From positions 1 through 32,375 of the forward strand of contig JAQSWW010000034.1 in assembly GCA_029266415.1 (NCBI GenBank): a stretch of 32,375 nucleotides of DNA, written 5' to 3'. The position numbers were made by a program, and so were the translations under genes. This document shows positions 13,043 through 22,065 of this stretch, one piece after another; position 1 is the first letter of the stretch; each line of letters begins with the position of its first letter. A model generated the notes under the pieces. That model worked only from the letters and a program-made list of their open reading frames with translations. It was not told the DNA's origin and did not search any database. This DNA is from Actinomycetospora sp. GTDB taxonomy: Bacteria; Actinomycetota; Actinomycetes; Mycobacteriales; Pseudonocardiaceae.

Positions 13043-15079
13043 TCAGCCGACCCGGACGAACTCCGCCTCCGACGGGACACCGTCGCGGAGCAGGAACAGC
13101 ATGTACCAACCGGGCGGGGCGACGGCTCCGTCCGGCGGCATGCGCAGGGTCAGCTCGTCGGCGGACCGCGACGTGATCTCCAGCCCGACGTGGCGCTGGT
13201 CGGGGTTGAACGAGTGGGTGCAGGAGCCGTTGCGCATCAGCGCCACGGTGGTGATCGACGCGGCGTCGGGGGTCCCGACCGTGATGACGCTCCCGTGGTC
13301 GGCGGCGCCGGGCGCGGACACGATGGTCGGTCGGTCGCCGCGGAAGAGATACGGCGGGCGGAAGATCTCCAAACGGAGCTCCGAGACCGGGATGACCTCG
13401 GGGTTCCAGGTGGCGTCGGTGCCCGAGGTCATGACCGTCGCGTCCGGGAGCAGGAGCGCCGTGGCGTGGTAGAGCCGGGGCACCGTGGTGTGGTCCATCG
13501 GCGTCCACGTGTCGGTCTCCGGGTCGTAGATCTCGCTCTCCCACACCGGGTTCGCGCCGTTGTCGGCGAAGCCGCGGCTGCTGCCCGACATCACCAGCAC
13601 GGTGCGGTCGGGCAGCAGGACGGCGTCGGGCATGACGCGGGCGGCGTGCATCGGGGCGGCCGACTCCCAGGCCGGGGTGGTGGCGCCGAGGTCGAGGAGC
13701 TCACAGCTCGCCGTGGCGGGGGTCCGCATCCCCACCGGCGGCGCGCCGCCCCCGCCGAGCGCCAGCACCGTCGGCCGGTACGGCGGGCTCGCGTCGGGGA
13801 GCAGGGGCAGCAGGACGCTCGTGCCCTCGACGCCGTAGGTCCGGCTGTTCCGCCCGGGTCGGTCGACCGCGTCGAGCCCGACCGGGTCGAACGCGAAGGT
13901 GTCGAGGTCCAGGAAGACGGTGCGCGTGCCGCCGTGCACGAGCACCCGGTCGCCGGGGAGCACGAACACGAAGGGGTAGGTGACGAAGCCCCCGAACTGC
14001 CCGAACGAGGGCGCCGGCGTGGCCGGGCCGACCGTGTCGGTGTCCGGGTCGAAGATCTCGTAGCTGAGGTTGGGGTTGGGGCCCTGCGCGGGATCGAAGA
14101 CCCGGCGTTCGCCGGCCACGATGAGGACCCGGCCGTCGGGCAGCGTCGCGGCGGACGCGTACCAGCGCCCCTGGGCCATGCGGTCGACGTCCCGCCACTG
14201 GCCGCCGCCGGGGCCGCCCGGGGTGAAGGTGTGGAGCATCCGCAGCCGGTCCTGGTCCTCCCGGTCCCCGCCGACCATGAGCAGGCGGCCGTCGGGCAGG
14301 AACGCGTGGCCGCCGCAGAAGAGGTTCGGGAGGTGGTGGTGCGGGCCCTCGTAGCCCGGTGTCGACGCCGTGCTGGTGGCGAGGTCGAGCACCCGGGACT
14401 CGCCGTCGTGGGCCGGCTGGGGGTCGTGGTGACCGTGCCCCGTCTCGTCCAGGTAGCTCAGGAACCAGATCGAGCCGCGCGCCCCGGTCGGCAGTAGCGC
14501 CGCGTGCAGGCCGCTGATCCCCGCCGTGAACGGGGCGACGCTCCAGGCGCCGCCGACCGCGGGGTCGGGGCGCGGGAACGCCGGGCGGGTGAGCACCTCG
14601 TAGGCGCCGCGGTGGGCGTCCCACCAGATGTCGCCGCCCTGGAACCGCGTGTGCTGGCTGTGCCGGTCCGGGGTGGTCTCCTCGTTGCTCAGCGGATAGC
14701 CCAGGGCGCTGCGCTCCGAGCCGAGCTGGGCCCACAGCACGTGGATGGCGCCGCGGACCTCGAACGCCCCCGTGCCCGGGGTCCAGTAGATCGCGCCGTT
14801 CTGGAAGAGGTTGAAGCGCCCGATGCCGTCCGGGGTGGCGGTCTCGTCGGTGAGGGGATATCCGAGCGGGCTCCGCTCCCAGCCCATGCCCGCCCAGGCG
14901 GCGAAGATCGCGCCGTGGACCTCGTGCGCCCCGGTGGCGGGTGACCAGTAGATGGACCCGAACAGGTAGTGCCGGAACCGCCCGATGCCGTCCGGGGCGC
15001 TCAGCTCCGGGCCCGTCGGCGCCCCCAGCACGCCTCCGGCCCCGCCGAGCGCCGCGTGGTGGTCGTCGATCGGGCCCAT
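13043..15079 (-). CDS. Copper-radical oxidase (galactose-oxidase-like, DUF1929) with N-terminal LGFP repeats
   Basis: A 678-residue three-part protein. Residues 10-165 hold three LGFP-type repeats (LGAPTG, GSIYWSPATGAHEVHG, SPLGYPLTDE, GAIYWTPGTGAFEVRG, SALGYPLSNE), which in other actinobacterial proteins bind the cell envelope. Residues 180-580 form a kelch-like propeller and 580-678 a DUF1929 domain. Residues matching galactose oxidase copper ligands and the Tyr-Cys cofactor are present: Cys255 (NLFCGG), Tyr307 (GRWYASA), Tyr537-His538 (RLYHATA) and His622 (CTHSFNPDQR). Such enzymes oxidise alcohols or aldehydes and make hydrogen peroxide; Streptomyces GlxA is a relative. GGAGGT five bases before the ATG at 15079 fixes the start. 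No signal peptide is visible, which is odd. Confidence 0.88.
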   Translation of the reverse strand: MGPIDDHHAALGGAGGVLGAPTGPELSAPDGIGRFRHYLFGSIYWSPATGAHEVHGAIFAAWAGMGWERSPLGYPLTDETATPDGIGRFNLFQNGAIYWTPGTGAFEVRGAIHVLWAQLGSERSALGYPLSNEETTPDRHSQHTRFQGGDIWWDAHRGAYEVLTRPAFPRPDPAVGGAWSVAPFTAGISGLHAALLPTGARGSIWFLSYLDETGHGHHDPQPAHDGESRVLDLATSTASTPGYEGPHHHLPNLFCGGHAFLPDGRLLMVGGDREDQDRLRMLHTFTPGGPGGGQWRDVDRMAQGRWYASAATLPDGRVLIVAGERRVFDPAQGPNPNLSYEIFDPDTDTVGPATPAPSFGQFGGFVTYPFVFVLPGDRVLVHGGTRTVFLDLDTFAFDPVGLDAVDRPGRNSRTYGVEGTSVLLPLLPDASPPYRPTVLALGGGGAPPVGMRTPATASCELLDLGATTPAWESAAPMHAARVMPDAVLLPDRTVLVMSGSSRGFADNGANPVWESEIYDPETDTWTPMDHTTVPRLYHATALLLPDATVMTSGTDATWNPEVIPVSELRLEIFRPPYLFRGDRPTIVSAPGAADHGSVITVGTPDAASITTVALMRNGSCTHSFNPDQRHVGLEITSRSADELTLRMPPDGAVAPPGWYMLFLLRDGVPSEAEFVRVG

Positions 15080-15169
15080 GGCGCACCTCCGGTGATGTCT
15101 CACCGAGAGTGACAGGGTCCGGTGCGGTCCGGGTGGAGTGCCACTCGAACAGCCCAGGGTCGGGCGCGG

Positions 15170-17008
15170 TCAGCTCAGCCCGAAGTGCGTGCAGAGCCAG
15201 TCGACGCACTCGTGGATGAAGCGCACGCGGTTCTCGGTGCGCTGGATCTCGTGGCCCTCGTCCTCGAAGAGCAGGTACTTCAGCGGCACGCCCGCGGCCT
15301 TGGCCCCGTGCACCGCGAGCTCGGCCTCGTGCACCGGGACGTTGGTGTCGTACTTGCCGTGGATCACGAGCAGGGGCGCGCGCAGGTGCTCCATGCGGTG
15401 CACGGGGGAGAGCTCGCGCAGCAGGTTGCGGTCGTGGATGGGGTGCCCGTACTCGCCGACGGCGGCGTCGGCGATCCAGGGCTCGGTGCGGGCGAAGAAC
15501 GTCTCGAAGTCGGCCATGCCGCAGACGTCGATGCCCGCGGCGAAGAGGTCGGGGTGGTTCACGAGCGCCGCGAGCGTCAGGTAGCCGCCGTAGGACCGGC
15601 CCATCACGCCCACGCGGTCGGGGTCGGCGATCCCGTTCTCCACGAGGTGCTCGACGCAGGTGGCGACGTCGCGGATCGCCGCGAAGCGCCCGGCGCCGTT
15701 GTCGGCGTTGACGAACGAGCGCCCGGACCCCGACGAGCCCCGGACGTTCGCCGCGTACACGGCGATCCCGCGGGCGAGCAGGTGCTGGTAGAGCGGGGTG
15801 AACACCGGGCGCTCCTGCGCCTCGGGGCCGCCGTGCAGGTAGATCACGGTCGGCAGCGGCCCCGCCTGTCCCCGCGGGCGGTAGAGCCAGCCGGGCAGGC
15901 GCAGTCCGTCGGGGGTGGTGACGACCTCGAGCGACGGGTGCACGAGCTGCCCCGGCGACCAGCGCGGCTCCTCCTGCGGGCAGATGAGCGCCGTGGTGTC
16001 CGAGGACAGCTCGTGGCACCACACGGCCGCGGGCACCTCGGGCGACTGGATGCCCATCACCAGCGAGTCGCCGTCGTGGCTGAAGATCGCGCTCGTGACG
16101 ACGTCGCCCGGCGGGGTGTAGGGCGCGACCTTGCCGGTGGCGATGTCGAGGAGGTCGACCTCGCTGCGCCCGGCGACGTTCCACACCACCGCGGCGAGCG
16201 CGGCGTCCTCGGTCAGCGCGAACGCCTCGAGCTCGGCGTCCTCGCGTTCGGCGAGCACCTCGGGGGTCATCGGGCTGGCGTCGGTGGCGACGTCGACGGC
16301 CACCAGTGCCGCCCGCTCGCGCCCGCCGTCGGTGAGCAGCAGCATCCGCGTGCCGTCGGGGGTGAAGCGGCCGGCGACGACGGTGGAGTCGCGGGTGATG
16401 GCCACCGAGTGCTCCACGGCCCCCGGCGGACCGCCGGGCCCGCGCGAGGCGTCGATCTCGTGCCAGCCCTCGGTGCCGTCGAGGTCGACGATGCCCACGT
16501 GGCGGGACCCCCGCCGGCCGCGGCGCAGCAGCACGCGACGCCGGTCGCGGCTGACGTCGAGGATCTTCAGGGCGTGCCCGGACCCGAGGCGCTGCCGTTG
16601 CGAGGAGTCGGCGTCGACCAGCCAGGCCGTGGTGGTGTCGTAGTCGGACTCCGTGATCGCGAGGACCGAGCCCGTGTGGGTGAAACGGTCGAGCGTCACC
16701 GCCCCGCGGTCACCGTCGCCCACGCCGCGCACGGGCCGCAGGTCGGTGCCGTCGGGCCGGATGATCGAGACGTGTGTGCGTTCCCCGCCGTCGGGCGCGG
16801 TCTCGACCGCGAGCCACGCCCCGTCCGGCGACCAGCGCACCGACGAGACGAGGTCCTCGCCGGTGTCGATCGACCACTCCTCGCCGGTGGCCCGGCGGTG
16901 CAGGCGGACCTGCGGGCGACCGTCGCCGTCCCACACGAACGCGATCGCGGTCCCGTCGGGGGACGGGCTGGGCGACCAGCAGCGGGTGGCGCTGATCCAC
17001 TCGTCCAC
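15170..17008 (-). CDS. S9 family prolyl-oligopeptidase-type peptidase
   Basis: A 612-residue serine peptidase with an N-terminal beta-propeller (about 1-360, with WSPDG, FTPDG and FSHDG blade motifs) and a C-terminal alpha/beta hydrolase domain. The triad is Ser472 in GRSYGGY, Asp554 in KYDTNVP and His586 in EDEGHEIQ. The family cleaves short peptides, dipeptides or acylated amino acids. There is no signal peptide, so it is cytoplasmic. GAGGAGG about eight bases before the GTG at 17008 sets the start. It lies 55 bases downstream of the amidotransferase gene on the same strand and is probably the third gene of that operon. A peptidase also accompanies the NAGGN ligase-amidotransferase pair in other bacteria, though from family M42. 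Confidence 0.93.
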   Translation of the reverse strand: MDEWISATRCWSPSPSPDGTAIAFVWDGDGRPQVRLHRRATGEEWSIDTGEDLVSSVRWSPDGAWLAVETAPDGGERTHVSIIRPDGTDLRPVRGVGDGDRGAVTLDRFTHTGSVLAITESDYDTTTAWLVDADSSQRQRLGSGHALKILDVSRDRRRVLLRRGRRGSRHVGIVDLDGTEGWHEIDASRGPGGPPGAVEHSVAITRDSTVVAGRFTPDGTRMLLLTDGGRERAALVAVDVATDASPMTPEVLAEREDAELEAFALTEDAALAAVVWNVAGRSEVDLLDIATGKVAPYTPPGDVVTSAIFSHDGDSLVMGIQSPEVPAAVWCHELSSDTTALICPQEEPRWSPGQLVHPSLEVVTTPDGLRLPGWLYRPRGQAGPLPTVIYLHGGPEAQERPVFTPLYQHLLARGIAVYAANVRGSSGSGRSFVNADNGAGRFAAIRDVATCVEHLVENGIADPDRVGVMGRSYGGYLTLAALVNHPDLFAAGIDVCGMADFETFFARTEPWIADAAVGEYGHPIHDRNLLRELSPVHRMEHLRAPLLVIHGKYDTNVPVHEAELAVHGAKAAGVPLKYLLFEDEGHEIQRTENRVRFIHECVDWLCTHFGLS

Positions 17009-17063
17009 CGGGTGGGCCTCCTCGGGTCCGGGCGACGCCTCACCAGTACCCCGGGAACCTACG

Positions 17064-18839
17064 TCAGGTGATGCCGTGTGCCTGCAGCCACATCTCGAGC
17101 AGCGCGACCTGCCACAGCGCGTTGGCGCCGAGGTTGGTCCGGCCGGAGTTCGGGTCGTCGAGCATCTTCTCGACGGCGTCGGCACGGAACAGCCCGCGCG
17201 ATCGCGCCGCCGGGTCGGTGAGCGCCCCGCGCACGCGCTCGAGCACCGGTCCCGAGAGCTGGCGGATCGCCGGCACCGGGAAGTAGCCCTTCTTGCGGTC
17301 GATGATCTCGTCGGGGAGCACGCCGCGCGCCGCGGCCTTGAGCACGCCCTTGCCGCCGTCGGCAAGCTTGTACTCGGGCGGGCACGCGCCCATGGTCTCG
17401 ACGAACTCGTGGTCGAGGAACGGCACGCGCGCCTCGAGCCCCCAGGCCATGGTCATGTTGTCGACGCGCTTCACCGGGTCGTCGACCAGCATGATCGTGG
17501 TGTCGAGGCGCAGCGCGGCGTCGACCGCGGAGTCCGCACCCGGGCGGGCGAAGTGCGCCGCGACGAACTCGCGGCTCACGTCGGTGTCGACCAGCGCCTC
17601 GGGCGTCAGGAGCTCGGCCACGCCCTCGTGCGGGCGGTCGAAGAACGACTTCCGGTAGGCCTCGACGGCGTCCCCGCGGGCCACGCCGGCCAGCGGCGGG
17701 TACCAGTCGTAGCCGCCGAGGATCTCGTCGGCGCCCTGGCCCGACTGCACGACCTTGATCGACTTCGAGACCTCCCGCGACAGCAGGTAGAAGGCGACGA
17801 CGTCGTGGCTGACCATCGGCTCGGCCATCGCCGCGACCGCGCCCTCGAGCGCGTCGTCGGTCTCGTGCTTGGGCACGGTGAACTTGACGTGGTCGGTGCC
17901 GTAGGTCTTGGCGACGAGGTCGGAGTAGTCGAACTCGTCGCCGGCCTCGCCGGCCTCGGACTCGAAGCCGATCGAGAAGGTCTTGAGGTCCCGCTGGCCC
18001 ATCTCGGCGAGCAGGGCCACGACGATCGACGAGTCGATGCCGCCGGAGAGCAGCACGCCGACCGGGACGTCGGCGACCATGCGCCGCTCCACCGCGGTGC
18101 GCAGGGAGCTCAGCGCGGTCTCCGCCCACTCCTGCGCGGAACGCTCGTCGTGGCGGACGAACGCGGGCTCCCAGTAGGTCCAGTCGTCGGTGCCGCCGTC
18201 GGGGGAGATCGTGCGGATCGTGGCCGGCGGCAGCTTGCGCACGCCCTGCAGGATGGTCCGCGGTGAGGGCACCACCGAGTGGAAGCTCATGTAGTGGTGC
18301 AGGGCGACGCGGTCGACGTCGGTGTTGAGGCCACCGCCGGCGAGCAGCGCCGGCAGCGACGACGCGAACCGGACCGCGCCGGGCACCTGCGCGACGTAGA
18401 GCGGCTTGATGCCGAGGCGGTCGCGACCGAGGACGAGCTCGCCGGTACGCCGATCGGCGACGGCGAACGCGAACATGCCCTTGAAGTGCTCGACGCAGGC
18501 CTTCCCCCACCGGTGGAAGGCCTTGAGCAACACCTCGGTGTCCGAGGTGGAGAAGAACCGGTAGCCCTCGGCGTGCAGCTCCTCGCGGAGGTCCTTGTAG
18601 TTGTAGATGATCCCGTTGAAGACCGCGGTCAGCCCGAGCTCGGAGTCGACCATCGGCTGCGCGCCGGTCTCCGACAGGTCGATGATCTTGAGGCGCTGGT
18701 GGGCGAGGGCCAGCGGACCGTGGCCGACGACGCCCCAGCCGTCGGGGCCGCGGGGCTCGAGGACCCGTGCCATGTCGAGCACGGTCGCCGCCTCCGCCGC
18801 CCGGCCGTCGAAGCGGAACTCACCGGCGATGCCGCACAC
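17064..18839 (-). CDS. Asparagine-synthase-type amidotransferase, N-acetylglutaminylglutamine amidotransferase-like
   Basis: A 591-residue glutamine-dependent amidotransferase. The N-terminal Ntn domain begins MCGIAG with nucleophile Cys2 and contains RGPDGWG, HQRLKIIDLS and FNGIIYNY. The C-terminal synthetase domain has the ATP pyrophosphatase loop SGGIDSS at 265-271. Segments such as VALHHYMSFHSVVPSPRTI, QSGQGADEILGGYDWYPP and KRVDNMTMAWGLEARVPFLDHEFV recall the NAGGN amidotransferase subgroup rather than ordinary AsnB. Such an enzyme would convert a carboxylate of a small peptide into an amide. The start is the GTG at 18839, with GAGGAGG seven bases upstream. It lies 39 bases downstream of the ligase fusion and 55 bases upstream of the S9 peptidase. 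Plain asparagine synthetase cannot be excluded. Confidence 0.92.
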   Translation of the reverse strand: MCGIAGEFRFDGRAAEAATVLDMARVLEPRGPDGWGVVGHGPLALAHQRLKIIDLSETGAQPMVDSELGLTAVFNGIIYNYKDLREELHAEGYRFFSTSDTEVLLKAFHRWGKACVEHFKGMFAFAVADRRTGELVLGRDRLGIKPLYVAQVPGAVRFASSLPALLAGGGLNTDVDRVALHHYMSFHSVVPSPRTILQGVRKLPPATIRTISPDGGTDDWTYWEPAFVRHDERSAQEWAETALSSLRTAVERRMVADVPVGVLLSGGIDSSIVVALLAEMGQRDLKTFSIGFESEAGEAGDEFDYSDLVAKTYGTDHVKFTVPKHETDDALEGAVAAMAEPMVSHDVVAFYLLSREVSKSIKVVQSGQGADEILGGYDWYPPLAGVARGDAVEAYRKSFFDRPHEGVAELLTPEALVDTDVSREFVAAHFARPGADSAVDAALRLDTTIMLVDDPVKRVDNMTMAWGLEARVPFLDHEFVETMGACPPEYKLADGGKGVLKAAARGVLPDEIIDRKKGYFPVPAIRQLSGPVLERVRGALTDPAARSRGLFRADAVEKMLDDPNSGRTNLGANALWQVALLEMWLQAHGIT

Positions 18840-18878
18840 GGGGGGCCTCCTCGGGGGTCAGCGGTCGGGTGCGCGTGG

Positions 18879-21497
18879 TCAGCGCAGGATCCAGGTGTCC
18901 TTCGAGCCCCCACCGCGCGACGAGTTGACCACGAGGGAGTCGGCGGGCGCGACCCGCGTGAGCGGGGTCGGCAGCACGGTGGGGGTCGGGGCGAGGACGA
19001 CGAACGCGCGCAGGTCGACCACGCGCGGCTCGAGCGTCGCGCCGGTGAACGTGGGGTGGGTGGAGATGCGGATGGTCTCCTGGGCGACGAAGCCGGCGGG
19101 GTGCTCGCGGACCGCGGCGGCCGCGCGCTCCAGCTCCTCGGCGCCCGCGTGCGGGCCGATGACGATGCCCTCGCCGCCGAAGCCGTCGACGGGCTTGAGC
19201 ACCAGCTCGTCGAGGTGGTCGAGGACGTACTCGCGCTGCTCGGGCTCGGCGCACGACCAGGTCGGGACGGCCGCGAGCGTCGCCTTCTCGCCGAAGTAGT
19301 ACTCGGTGAGCGCGGAGATGAAGGGGTAGACGCCCTTGTCGTCGACCAGCCCGTTGCCCGGCGCGTTGGCCAGGGTCAGCCGGCCGGTGCGCACGGCCTC
19401 CTGGATGGGCTCGCCGAGCTGGACGCCTTCCGCGTCGCGGCCGTCGAAGAGCACCTCCTCGTCGATGCGCCGGTAGAGCACGTCGACGGGGCGCCCGCTC
19501 GCGGCGATCGTGATCATGCCGGCGGCGGCCCGCAGCTCGCCGGGCGTGAGCAGCGGCACCCCCATCTCCTCGGCGAGCATGCGGTGCTCGAAGTACGCCG
19601 AGTCGCTCGGGCCCTCGGTGACGACGGCGAGGATCGGGTCGCTGCCCGCGGCCGGCGGGGCGCTCGCCGTCAGCGCCTCGCGGAGCATGGCCGGGCCGTC
19701 GTCGGCGTCGAGCACGCCGCGCGGCGCCTGCAGCTCGGGCAGCACGCTGCGGATCACCCGCCGGTCGGCCACCGCGTAGCCGATGCCCGACGGGATGCGC
19801 AGGTTGTCCTCGAGGAGCTTCCACTCGCCCTCGCCGTCGCACACGAGGTCGAGGCCCTGGACCAGCGCGCGCACGGCGCCGGGGTGCAGGTTCATCGCGG
19901 CCTCGTGCGGCTGGGGGAGCCAGCGCAGGGCGGCCTCGGGCAGCACGCCGTCGTGCAGGCAGGCGCGCTCGCCGTGCAGGTCCTGCAGCAGCGCCTCGCA
20001 GGTGCGGGCGCGCTGCACCAGGCCCGCGGTGAGCGTCTCCCACTCGCCGGGGGTGATCAGGCGGGGCACGAGGTCGAGGGGGAACAGCCGCTCCTCGTCG
20101 TCGGCCTGGGGGAAGAGCATGCCGCGGGCGCGCTGCTCGGCGTCGCGGCTCTTCTCGTGCACCAGCAGGCCCGACGGCCCGATCCGCTCCAGCGTCGAGA
20201 CGAGCCAGGAGTAGGCAGGGCGCACCGTGCCGTCCTCGGACACGGCCTCGTCGTAGGAGACCGAGCTCTGCGGAGCTCGACCATCGGGGGAGGCCGCCGG
20301 CGCGTAGTCGGCGAGCAGGACCGGCGCGACGGTCCCGGAGACGGGCGCGTCGACCGGCGAGTCCGGGGCGCCGCGGGTCTCGGCGACGAGCATGTCGACG
20401 ACGGCCTCGATGCTGCCGCTGCGGTTGGCGCGCTGGCGCTGGCGGGCGGCCGAGCTGCCCCGGGCCAGGGCCTCCACCGCGAGGTCGTGGACGACGTCGC
20501 GGTCGCCGGACTCGGCCAGGTCGTCGTCGAGATGCTCGAGCAGCAGGCGCACCGCCCGCGACGGCGGGACGAGATCACGCCCGCGCACGTCGGTCAGGTC
20601 GCCCTCGAGGCCCGAGCGGGCGGCGCGCCAGCTGGCCGCGCGCAGCAGCTCGGGGCGGTGCTGCGGGGTGGGGCGGCCCTCGACGTGCGCGCGCACGCCG
20701 TGGCGCACGAGCGCCCGCGCCAGGCCGGCGATGAGCACGACGCCGTCGACGCTCGGGCTGGCGTCGCAGATCCGCAGCTCGACGGTGTCCTGGTGCGCTG
20801 AGGGACGCATGTCGAAATAGACCATGCCGGGGTCGGACATCGTCCCCGAGGCGACGAGGTCGGCGATGAGCGCGTCGTACTCGGCGGCGTCGCGCAGGGG
20901 CGCCGGAGGACCGGCGGTGGGCCAGCGGTGCCAGGCCAGCGTGCGGCAGCTCGCGTAGCCGGTGTCCTGGTTCTTCCAGAACGGCGAGCTGGCCGACAGC
21001 GCGAGCAGCACCGGCAGCCACGGTGCGCTGTGCTGCATGACGGCGATCGCCGCATCGCGGTCGGGGACGTCGACGTGCACCTGCGTACCGCAGATCTGCT
21101 GCTCGAACGCGAGCATCTGGTACTCGTCGCGCATCCGCTCGTAGCGCGGCGAGGGGGTGATGCCCTCCGCGGAGCCGTCGATCAGTGGCACGCTGCCCGC
21201 GCCGACCACGCCCAGACCGCGGTCCTCGGCGAGGTGGGCGAGCATCCCGCGCAGCCGCACGAGGTCGGTGCGCAGGTCGGCGAGGTCCGCCGTCGGCCGG
21301 GAGTTGGTCTCGATGATCGAGGGCTTGAGCTCGGCGGCGAACGCCTCGCCGTCGAGGGCCTGCAGCTCGTCGAGCAGCTCGGGCACCCGCGGCACCGCCG
21401 ACCGGGTCTCCAGGTCGACGAGGTGGAACTCCTCCTCGACCCCCAGGACGACCTCGTCCGCAGGGGCCAGGCGGCGGTCCGGTGGTCGTGCTCCCAT
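18879..21497 (-). CDS. Carboxylate-amine ligase (YbdK/GCS2) fused to circularly permuted type 2 ATP-grasp
   Basis: An 872-residue fusion. Residues 17-375 are a YbdK-type glutamate-cysteine-ligase-2 domain (LGVEEEFHLVD, SIIETNSRP, CGTQVHVDVPDRDAA, RPSAHQDTVELRICDASPSVD). Residues 376-428 are a low-complexity linker. Residues 429-872 are a circularly permuted ATP-grasp of the DUF404/DUF407 type (HPGAVRALVQGLDLV, KLLEDNLRIPSGIGYAV, TEGPSDSAYFEH, NAPGNGLVDDKGVYPFI, LKPVDGFGGEGIVIGP, NSSRGGGSKDTW). Both domains form amide bonds with ATP in known relatives, so the protein probably builds a small peptide or amide. The ATG at 21497 lies eight bases after TAGGTT, a leaderless-type promoter. Copy C of the dispersed repeat encodes part of the linker. 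It is the first gene of the trio; substrates are unknown. Confidence 0.9.
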   Translation of the reverse strand: MGARPPDRRLAPADEVVLGVEEEFHLVDLETRSAVPRVPELLDELQALDGEAFAAELKPSIIETNSRPTADLADLRTDLVRLRGMLAHLAEDRGLGVVGAGSVPLIDGSAEGITPSPRYERMRDEYQMLAFEQQICGTQVHVDVPDRDAAIAVMQHSAPWLPVLLALSASSPFWKNQDTGYASCRTLAWHRWPTAGPPAPLRDAAEYDALIADLVASGTMSDPGMVYFDMRPSAHQDTVELRICDASPSVDGVVLIAGLARALVRHGVRAHVEGRPTPQHRPELLRAASWRAARSGLEGDLTDVRGRDLVPPSRAVRLLLEHLDDDLAESGDRDVVHDLAVEALARGSSAARQRQRANRSGSIEAVVDMLVAETRGAPDSPVDAPVSGTVAPVLLADYAPAASPDGRAPQSSVSYDEAVSEDGTVRPAYSWLVSTLERIGPSGLLVHEKSRDAEQRARGMLFPQADDEERLFPLDLVPRLITPGEWETLTAGLVQRARTCEALLQDLHGERACLHDGVLPEAALRWLPQPHEAAMNLHPGAVRALVQGLDLVCDGEGEWKLLEDNLRIPSGIGYAVADRRVIRSVLPELQAPRGVLDADDGPAMLREALTASAPPAAGSDPILAVVTEGPSDSAYFEHRMLAEEMGVPLLTPGELRAAAGMITIAASGRPVDVLYRRIDEEVLFDGRDAEGVQLGEPIQEAVRTGRLTLANAPGNGLVDDKGVYPFISALTEYYFGEKATLAAVPTWSCAEPEQREYVLDHLDELVLKPVDGFGGEGIVIGPHAGAEELERAAAAVREHPAGFVAQETIRISTHPTFTGATLEPRVVDLRAFVVLAPTPTVLPTPLTRVAPADSLVVNSSRGGGSKDTWILR
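20256..20290 (+). repeat. Short dispersed repeat, copy C, inside the ligase-fusion linker
   Basis: GGAGAC plus GCGGAGCTCGACC match copy A, and GACCATCG matches copy B. Read on the minus strand it encodes roughly residues 403-415 of the ligase fusion, within the disordered linker between its two catalytic domains. Confidence 0.5.
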
Positions 21498-21505
21498 GGC
21501 GGGTC

Positions 21506-21511
21506 AACCTA
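21506..21511 (-). promoter_or_regulatory. Candidate leaderless promoter -10 of the ligase-amidotransferase-peptidase operon
   Basis: On the minus strand TAGGTT fits TAnnnT and ends eight bases before the ATG at 21497. There is no Shine-Dalgarno. No convincing -35 hexamer is seen. Confidence 0.45.
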
Positions 21512-21594
21512 CGATCGGCGTGTCACGTGCGTGTTTCCGAGGGGCCGTCCACTACCCCGACGGCGGCCGGTGTCACACCTGCCAGACTGCGCGG

Positions 21595-22065
21595 GTGCGC
21601 GTCTTCCTCGGATCGGACCACGCGGGCTTCGCACTGAAGGCCCATCTGCTGCGCGAACTGGCGAAGGGCGGGCACGACGTCGTCGACGTCGGGCCCGCCG
21701 AGTACGACGCGGCCGACGACTACCCGCCGTTCTGCATCGAGACCGGGCGCCGCACCGTGGCCACGGACGGCAGCCTCGGCGTCGTCATCGGCGGCTCGGG
21801 CAACGGCGAGCAGATCGCGGCGAACAAGGTGCCGGGCTGCCGCGCCGCGCTCGCCTGGAGCGTCGAGACCGCGCAGCTGGCCCGCAAGCACAACGACGCC
21901 CAGGTCGTGTCGATCGGCGCGCGGATGCACTCCGCCGAGGACGCGACGGAGATCGTGACGGCGTTCCTCGCCACCGCGTTCGAGGGCGGGCGCCACCAGC
22001 GCCGTCTCGACATGCTCACCGCCTACGAGCAGACCGGCGAGCCCCCGGCGCTGCCCGAGGACTGA
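21595..22065 (+). CDS. rpiB: Ribose-5-phosphate isomerase B
   Basis: A 156-residue RpiB/LacA-family isomerase interconverting ribose 5-phosphate and ribulose 5-phosphate in the pentose phosphate pathway. The N-terminal GSDHAGFALK phosphate-binding motif starts at residue 6. The active-site loop IGGSGNGEQIAANKVPG has Glu72 where enterobacterial RpiB has Cys, the mycobacterial-type arrangement. HNDAQVVSIGARMH follows. The GTG at 21595 was chosen because the conserved sequence starts at once; CAGACT six bases after itself could be a leaderless -10, though it departs from TAnnnT. It is divergent from the ligase fusion and 29 bases upstream of the DNA glycosylase gene, the same pair as Rv2465c-Rv2464c. 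Confidence 0.96.
   Translation: MRVFLGSDHAGFALKAHLLRELAKGGHDVVDVGPAEYDAADDYPPFCIETGRRTVATDGSLGVVIGGSGNGEQIAANKVPGCRAALAWSVETAQLARKHNDAQVVSIGARMHSAEDATEIVTAFLATAFEGGRHQRRLDMLTAYEQTGEPPALPED

Follow-up and report, generated by a model that had tools for sequence, protein, structure and literature searches.

Biosynthesis of N-acetylglutaminylglutamine amide (NAGGN), a pathway of salt protection, is encoded by the gene trio asnO-ngg-M42. In Pseudomonas aeruginosa this trio corresponds to PA3459-3461, and the reactions of Ngg and AsnO are described as acetylation of Gln, formation of a peptide bond with a second Gln, and amidation (PMC8070244). Clusters also named asnO-ngg are reported for Frankia. 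Their AsnO proteins are described as more than 60% identical to the others, their "Ngg" proteins as less than 15% identical to other Ngg, and a peptidase gene as lying between them, for which a role in pool balancing was proposed (PMC5563000). Here, we analyzed a related operon in a 32,375-nucleotide stretch of the Actinomycetospora sp. assembly GCA_029266415.1 (contig JAQSWW010000034.1, positions 1 to 32,375; herein referred to as the window). The operon encodes a GCS2 (YbdK-type) carboxylate-amine ligase fused to a circularly permuted (CP) ATP-grasp domain, an amidotransferase of the TIGR03104 (NAGGN) group, and a peptidase of the S9 family. In its proposed working it resembles the NAGGN trio, yet it is not one of these trios, because two of the three defining genes, those for Ngg and the M42 peptidase, were searched for and not found in this genome.

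All three genes are located on the minus strand. The first (18879-21497) encodes the 872-aa fusion, the second (17064-18839) the 591-aa glutamine-dependent amidotransferase, and the third (15170-17008) the 612-aa prolyl-oligopeptidase-family peptidase. The genes are separated by 39 bases (18840-18878) and 55 bases (17009-17063), and AGGAGG ribosome-binding sites were read directly ahead of the second (18846-18851) and the third gene (17017-17022). The open frame of the peptidase extends over 15170-17365; the GTG at 17008, downstream of AGGAGG, was chosen as its start. A preliminary description of this DNA had proposed a three-gene set on one strand with these gaps, made up of a YbdK/GCS2-CP ATP-grasp fusion, a NAGGN-like amidotransferase and an S9 peptidase; the coordinates agree with it, as do the profile matches for all of these families.

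In the fusion, the GCS2 profile PF04107 matched residues 18-297 (174.5 bits) and NF010041 matched residues 17-374 (20376-21449, minus strand; 359.6 bits, cut-off 332). The profile CP_ATPgrasp_2 (PF14403) matched residues 478-850 (361.4 bits, cut-off 32). The best structural relatives by sequence were 1tt4/1r8g (YbdK) for the N-terminal half and 3n6x (E=8.9e-86) for the C-terminal half, which by the latter match comprises residues 413-872 (18882-20261, minus strand). In 30/30 aligned fusions (that of the window plus 29 from the 43 loci fetched in the scan of named genomes presented below), residues E21, E22, E23, E56, E63, H141, R231, E240, and R242 of the GCS2 part and K721, K768, D828, R830, N858, K866, and D867 of the ATP-grasp part were invariant. 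These residues are presumably catalytic. With a domain score over the cut-off and conserved metal/glutamate residues, the N-terminal half belongs to the GCS2 ligases, and the C-terminal half belongs to the CP ATP-grasp proteins of type 2. The third gene product matched PF00326 with 150.7 bits and has Ser472, Asp554, and His586, which we take to be the catalytic triad and which are invariant in 22/22 aligned sequences, so that it belongs to the S9 family.

The amidotransferase matched TIGR03104 with 933.2 bits (cut-off 570.1), as expected for the amidotransferase of a NAGGN trio. Trees were built after removal of near-copies, using 67 of 94 rows with an outgroup and 38 of 85 ingroup amidotransferases without it; one locus at a contig edge (L125) is in none of the trees. 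With the outgroup, the TIGR03104 group split from nine AsnB-type rows with 100/100 support. Thus, the TIGR03104 score and this split uphold the earlier placement of the enzyme in the NAGGN group, and its identification as a plain AsnB was rejected by the tree. Without the outgroup, all 16 rows from GCS2 contexts, including one locus with S9 only (L088), were set apart from the remaining rows by a single branch (91/94, recovered in 92% of bootstraps).

Comparison of 18 of the 54 GCS2-type rows with 26 Ngg rows revealed 163 columns that reach 95% conservation in either context, including Cys2 and those of the SGG-DSS loop, and only three columns separating the two contexts at 85%. Residue 567 (codon at 17139-17141, minus strand), diagnostic for the GCS2/S9 context, was then counted in every row. 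It is Arg in 55/55 rows (46 fusion, 7 lone GCS2, and 2 S9-only) and Leu or Ile in 25/25 Ngg-type rows with a letter at this position (Arg 0/25). Elsewhere, it is Lys, Lys, and Ser in family f19 and Thr in locus L124. The column was picked after inspection of the rows and then checked on ten rows fetched later, in which Arg was found in 8/8 GCS2/S9 rows, Leu in the sole Ngg row, and Tyr in a solitary amidotransferase. The last of these (L176:6797-8575) matches TIGR03104, and a stretch of 16 kb at this locus contained no match to Ngg, GCS2, CP ATP-grasp, M42, or S9. Common ancestry could explain Arg567, and this residue is therefore a marker and at most a hint of a different acceptor; an arginine at this position would be compatible with a gamma-glutamyl cap whose carboxylate is free.

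When named genomes were searched with the fusion sequence, 46 loci were obtained, 43 of them with a full-length fusion. These 43 loci belong to Actinomycetospora, Actinoplanes and its split-off genera, Streptosporangium, and one Acidimicrobiales metagenome-assembled genome (MAG), the closest fusions being those of Actinomycetospora (94% and 90% identity). The same gene order and strand were found in 43/43 loci, with gaps, extrapolated from alignment ends, of about 10-140 and 18-111 bases; because order and strand are kept throughout, the arrangement is not due to chance. The other three loci encode CP ATP-grasp proteins in Bradyrhizobium MAGs, with no match to the second and third genes. In Streptosporangium canum, a second, lone GCS2 gene (L042:13434-14657, plus strand) is located right after the S9 gene of the trio.

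In a sample of 394 genomes of the class, the fusion was found in 46 genomes (42 spanning the model from position 4 or lower to at least 789, 3 that the aligner reported in two pieces although a single open frame contains them, and 1 at a contig edge), and TIGR03104 was over the cut-off in 106. The CP ATP-grasp genes of two genomes (G298 and G121) had been considered as unlinked fusions and were rejected, having no GCS2 match. An amidotransferase gene was adjacent to the fusion on the same strand in 36/46 cases. These include 31/31 in family f90 and 5/15 outside it, one each in f1 (the family of the window), f2, f7, f82, and f109; adjacency was never found in f99 (0/4), f89 (0/4), or f8 (0/2). 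In one genome (G638) an amidotransferase-S9 pair, and in another (G700) an amidotransferase, is located on another contig than the fusion. In a sample of 346 genomes of the phylum, four have the fusion, three of them as the trio and one (G317) as a fusion-S9 pair with no amidotransferase between. Fusion-S9 pairs of this kind show that, in some lineages, the ligase is associated more closely with S9 than with the amidotransferase, and that the amidation step can be missing. The preliminary description had proposed a search for conserved adjacency of the three families; all three are together in 43/43 named loci, the amidotransferase adjoins the fusion in 36/46 class genomes, and the set is modular rather than a fixed trio. 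Among 21 representative loci of all contexts, 20 gene clusters were present in at least 3 loci, and none beyond the trio was common to the fusion loci. Seventeen of the 20 overlap wholly or mostly with the trio or with known ligase/peptidase genes. The remainder consists of DUF1028 in f19, a cluster limited to three Streptomyces-like loci, and an unidentified cluster in four fusion-free loci.

The gene neighbors of the amidotransferase were searched in all 37 genomes of the phylum sample that were over the TIGR03104 cut-off. The ligase was Ngg in 24 genomes (10 with M42 in view), the fusion together with S9 in 3, and a lone GCS2 together with S9 in 4. The remaining contexts were a CP ATP-grasp without S9 (3, all in f19), S9 without a ligase (1, L112), GCS2 without S9 (1, L124), and a contig edge (1). 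S9 adjoins 7/7 amidotransferases of the fusion and lone-GCS2 lineages vs. 0/24 of the Ngg type (Fisher 4e-7, indicative only because the genomes are related); L112, being defined by its S9, is outside this count. With L124 and two f19 loci with divergent GCS2 counted as GCS2 contexts, S9 was found in 7/10 (Fisher 2e-5, again for related genomes). The lone GCS2-S9 context was also found in Nonomuraea, Streptomyces fungicidicus, and Embleya, and Streptomyces sp. NBC_01276 has the amidotransferase and S9 with GCS2 not in view. In the f19 loci (L104, L106, and L110), a TIGR03104 amidotransferase is accompanied by a separate CP ATP-grasp and by DUF1028, which follows the amidotransferase in 3/3 loci (by Pfam in two and by tblastn, in two pieces, in the third). 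A divergent GCS2 is located next to the CP ATP-grasp in 2/3 of these loci, and one of the same kind is present elsewhere in the third genome. By its gene content, f19 appears as a separate assembly and represents a third way of combining ligase, amidotransferase, and hydrolase.

In the GCS2 tree, the domains of the fusions and of the lone trio ligases form one 21-row group (94/99), which also includes two further lone GCS2 proteins, encoded on a Mycobacterium branderi plasmid and in genome G161 (the latter entered twice). The lone GCS2 of Nonomuraea pairs with a Streptosporangium fusion (100/100). In this tree the L042 row is the second GCS2 of that locus, not its fusion, and L142 and L158 are one gene entered twice. 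The CP domains of 12 fusions form a single clade (98/98), separate from the CP domains of f19. The simplest history would be a single fusion event followed by loss of the CP half in the Streptomyces-like and Nonomuraea lineages, with a separate assembly in f19; gain rather than loss would also fit.

Of the genes that define the NAGGN trio, Ngg was rarely found in fusion-bearing genomes and M42 in none of those searched. In the genome of the window, the best match to TIGR03103 (Ngg) scored 34.1 bits (cut-off 569), and TIGR03106 (M42), at an E-value limit of 1e-20, matched none of the 17 genomes searched (15 fusion-bearing, that of the window among them, and 2 with lone GCS2). The earlier proposal that other ligase and peptidase families replace Ngg and M42 is thus in keeping with this genome, where the two absences are weak taken alone because the assembly is 84.5% complete. 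In total, TIGR03103 was over the cut-off in 1/48 fusion genomes (0/1 for the genome of the window, and 0/19 and 1/28 for the others). In eleven fusion genomes (9 + 2), matches of 156-184 bits were limited to the ATP-grasp part of the model. The single positive genome (G416) has an Ngg-type gene (L179:6457-8487, 855 bits), with no TIGR03104 gene beside it or over the cut-off genome-wide, and also carries a fusion-S9 pair. Among the 36 class genomes with TIGR03104 beside the fusion, Ngg was sought in 19 and was over the cut-off in none. It was likewise over the cut-off in 0 of the 14 tested genomes of f90, all fusion-bearing, a family that may correspond to Frankiaceae. We suspect that the Frankia "asnO-ngg" clusters (PMC5563000) are of the GCS2-CP type, since the reported identities of their AsnO and "Ngg" proteins would fit a GCS2-type cluster taken for a NAGGN one. 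NAGGN labels on amidotransferases in the GCS2/S9 context look doubtful. No description of a GCS2-CP ATP-grasp fusion together with a TIGR03104 enzyme was found in the literature searched, the likeliest survey (Iyer et al., 2009) being outside that search.

By analogy with the NAGGN trio, the operon may encode a modular pathway leading to an amidated gamma-glutamyl peptide that is recycled by S9, a reading to which we give even chances. In this pathway, the GCS2 half would phosphorylate the gamma-carboxylate of glutamate and couple an amino acid X, yielding gamma-Glu-X, so that the N-acetyl group that caps NAGGN would be replaced by a gamma-glutamyl residue. In versions that have it, the CP ATP-grasp half would attach a second residue through another acyl phosphate. 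The amidotransferase would then amidate the C-terminal carboxylate with ammonia from glutamine, and S9 would hydrolyze the product once it is not needed any more, a role like that suggested for the NAGGN-cluster peptidase. As the product, we consider most likely a gamma-glutamyl di- or tripeptide amide, small and either neutral or zwitterionic, that would serve as a solute under osmotic or desiccation stress. More generally, it is possible, at somewhat under even chances, that actinobacteria hold an undescribed second class of peptide amides, the gamma-glutamyl di- and tripeptide amides, made by interchangeable ligase modules around one amidotransferase family and recycled by S9 or DUF1028. 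Judged from gene content, these modules would be a lone GCS2, the GCS2-CP ATP-grasp fusion, and separate GCS2 and CP ATP-grasp proteins. If so, many NAGGN annotations in Streptomyces, relatives of Actinoplanes, and probably Frankia would point to the wrong compound, TIGR03104 being the NCBI equivalog "N-acetylglutaminylglutamine amidotransferase" from whose calls genome papers infer NAGGN. A new family of small peptide amides would then be concealed under an established name in widespread genera of soil bacteria. Arg567 offers a cheap database discriminator of the two amidotransferase types as well as a residue for specificity work.

Several observations weigh against the proposed pathway. The amidotransferase also exceeds the cut-off of TIGR01536, the model for plain asparagine synthase (425.3 vs. 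267.1 bits). In the tree with the outgroup, the TIGR03104 backbone was unresolved and fusion rows were found in three places; support for the GCS2-context branch is not strong, and the branch dissolves when the nine long outgroup rows are included. The single family f90 accounts for 31 of the 36 adjacent cases, and 10/46 class fusions, all among the 15 outside f90, have no adjacent amidotransferase. In 8 of these ten genomes, no TIGR03104 gene was over the cut-off anywhere in the genome. Each of the four genomes of f99 carries the fusion paired with S9 and lacks an amidotransferase over the cut-off, and four other genomes (G546, G572, G642, and G650) have the fusion without any of the searched partners in about 16-17 kb. 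Genomes with fusion-S9 and no amidotransferase imply that amidation is not obligatory or is done by another enzyme. S9 is present in 6/7 of the adjacent class loci checked, the f90 locus L175 having the fusion and the amidotransferase without it, and in L124 GCS2 and the amidotransferase have no nearby S9. CP_ATPgrasp had no match in the whole genomes of four of four Streptomyces-like carriers of lone GCS2, and the CP step is therefore optional. No strict sigma-B, sigR, or sigE-like pattern was found in any of 53 upstream regions, the start positions of which are approximate. To our knowledge, the in vivo substrates of GCS2/YbdK enzymes are poorly known.

Other readings of the operon must be set beside this one. 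The operon could still make NAGGN, with the fusion in place of Ngg and the cap supplied by another acetyltransferase. Such a role would agree with the wide excess over the TIGR03104 cut-off, with 163 columns common to both contexts at 95% and three differing at 85%, and with the isolation of NAGGN from a Micromonospora, a member of the family of Actinoplanes (PMC8146288). We nevertheless consider it unlikely: the operon has no acetyltransferase domain, its GCS2-CP ATP-grasp protein is unlike the GNAT-ATP-grasp of Ngg, Ngg is below the cut-off in 47/48 fusion genomes, residue 567 is the Arg fingerprint, and the peptidase has been swapped as well. The succession of GCS2 and ATP-grasp also recalls the layout of bifunctional glutathione enzymes, and a glutathione-like redox or detoxification peptide would be formed if GCS2 made gamma-Glu-Cys and the ATP-grasp completed the tripeptide. 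NF010041 carries the name glutamate--cysteine ligase, and YbdK is said, after work by Lehmann in 2004, to have gamma-glutamyl:cysteine ligase activity. This reading seems improbable to us, given that the EgtA and gshA_cyano models match far below their cut-offs, that no bifunctional glutathione synthetase model (GshAB/GshF) is among the 11 matched NCBIfam families, and that the lone-GCS2 version manages without a second ligase. Moreover, actinobacteria use mycothiol, and we know of no precedent for amidation of a thiol tripeptide.

Modification of the cell wall or of a protein, in which the targets of ligase and amidotransferase would be the stem peptides of peptidoglycan or the tail of a protein and S9 would be the trimming enzyme, has a parallel in the Listeria AsnB that amidates meso-DAP of peptidoglycan (PMC8554201). 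This role is likewise of low probability, indeed rather slight, since none of the 20 clusters of the 21 representative loci outside the trio is common to the fusion loci and the second gene groups with an enzyme acting on a free dipeptide. Incidental clustering of a plain asparagine synthase with an unrelated ligase and peptidase is very improbable and close to refuted. The TIGR01536 score and the 10/46 non-adjacent fusions would be expected under it, and they are opposed by the 100/100 split from the nine AsnB-type rows and the co-conservation in 43/43 loci over four groups.

As to regulation of the proposed peptide amide operons, a loose sigma-B pattern was found in 6/53 upstream regions (shuffled mean 3.8), five of the six being the five Streptomyces-like loci. 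In these, G(C/A)TTA(T/C)-N13-GGGAAC precedes the lone GCS2 gene in 5/5 cases (L111, L114, L115, L117, and L086), while 51/1000 random 330-base stretches of the same loci contain the sigma-B-like site. The site is near the sigma-B consensus, with the last hexamer off by one base. Since the five loci are related to one another and the match to the consensus is inexact, this site is a lead for stress control in the Streptomyces-like group only; none was found in the genus of the window. In the window there was no Rfam match, and 15050-21700 contains no sigma-70-like or terminator-like site. Upstream of the fusion, a GAAACA-n-GTGACAC block (about 21511-21537) is largely kept in ten aligned Actinomycetospora regions and may be a promoter or operator of the fusion or of the divergent gene beyond it, the translation of which resembles RpiB. 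Downstream of the S9 gene, after a 66-base gap, the window has a minus-strand gene (13043-15103), the product of which combines three LGFP repeats with glyoxal/galactose-oxidase-like domains. In a check for phage links, the amidotransferase matched one PHROG of unknown function and the fusion matched none.

Compared with known systems, the operon shares parts with each and coincides with none. CP ATP-grasp proteins of type 2 (PDB 3n6x) resemble the C-terminal half of the fusion (residues 413-872), the CP domains of 12 fusions differing from them in forming a clade of their own. Such proteins are accompanied by alpha-E/transglutaminase (PMC3597751); neither was matched among the eight window proteins scanned. 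The YbdK/GCS2 ligases (PDB 1r8g and 1tt4) resemble the N-terminal half, including the residues conserved in the alignment, but in the window a second ligase is attached to GCS2, and an amidotransferase gene belongs to the cluster. The published gene order of the Frankia clusters is not exactly that of the window. With the NAGGN trio (TIGR03104, TIGR03103, and TIGR03106; e.g., in Azospirillum), the operon shares the amidotransferase family and the layout of one ligase gene, one amidotransferase gene, and one peptidase gene on one strand. The two differ in the ligase (GCS2-CP ATP-grasp in the window vs. GNAT-ATP-grasp in the trio), the peptidase (S9 vs. M42), residue 567 of the amidotransferase (Arg vs. 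Leu/Ile), and the gene order, with the ligase first in the window and the amidotransferase first in the trio.

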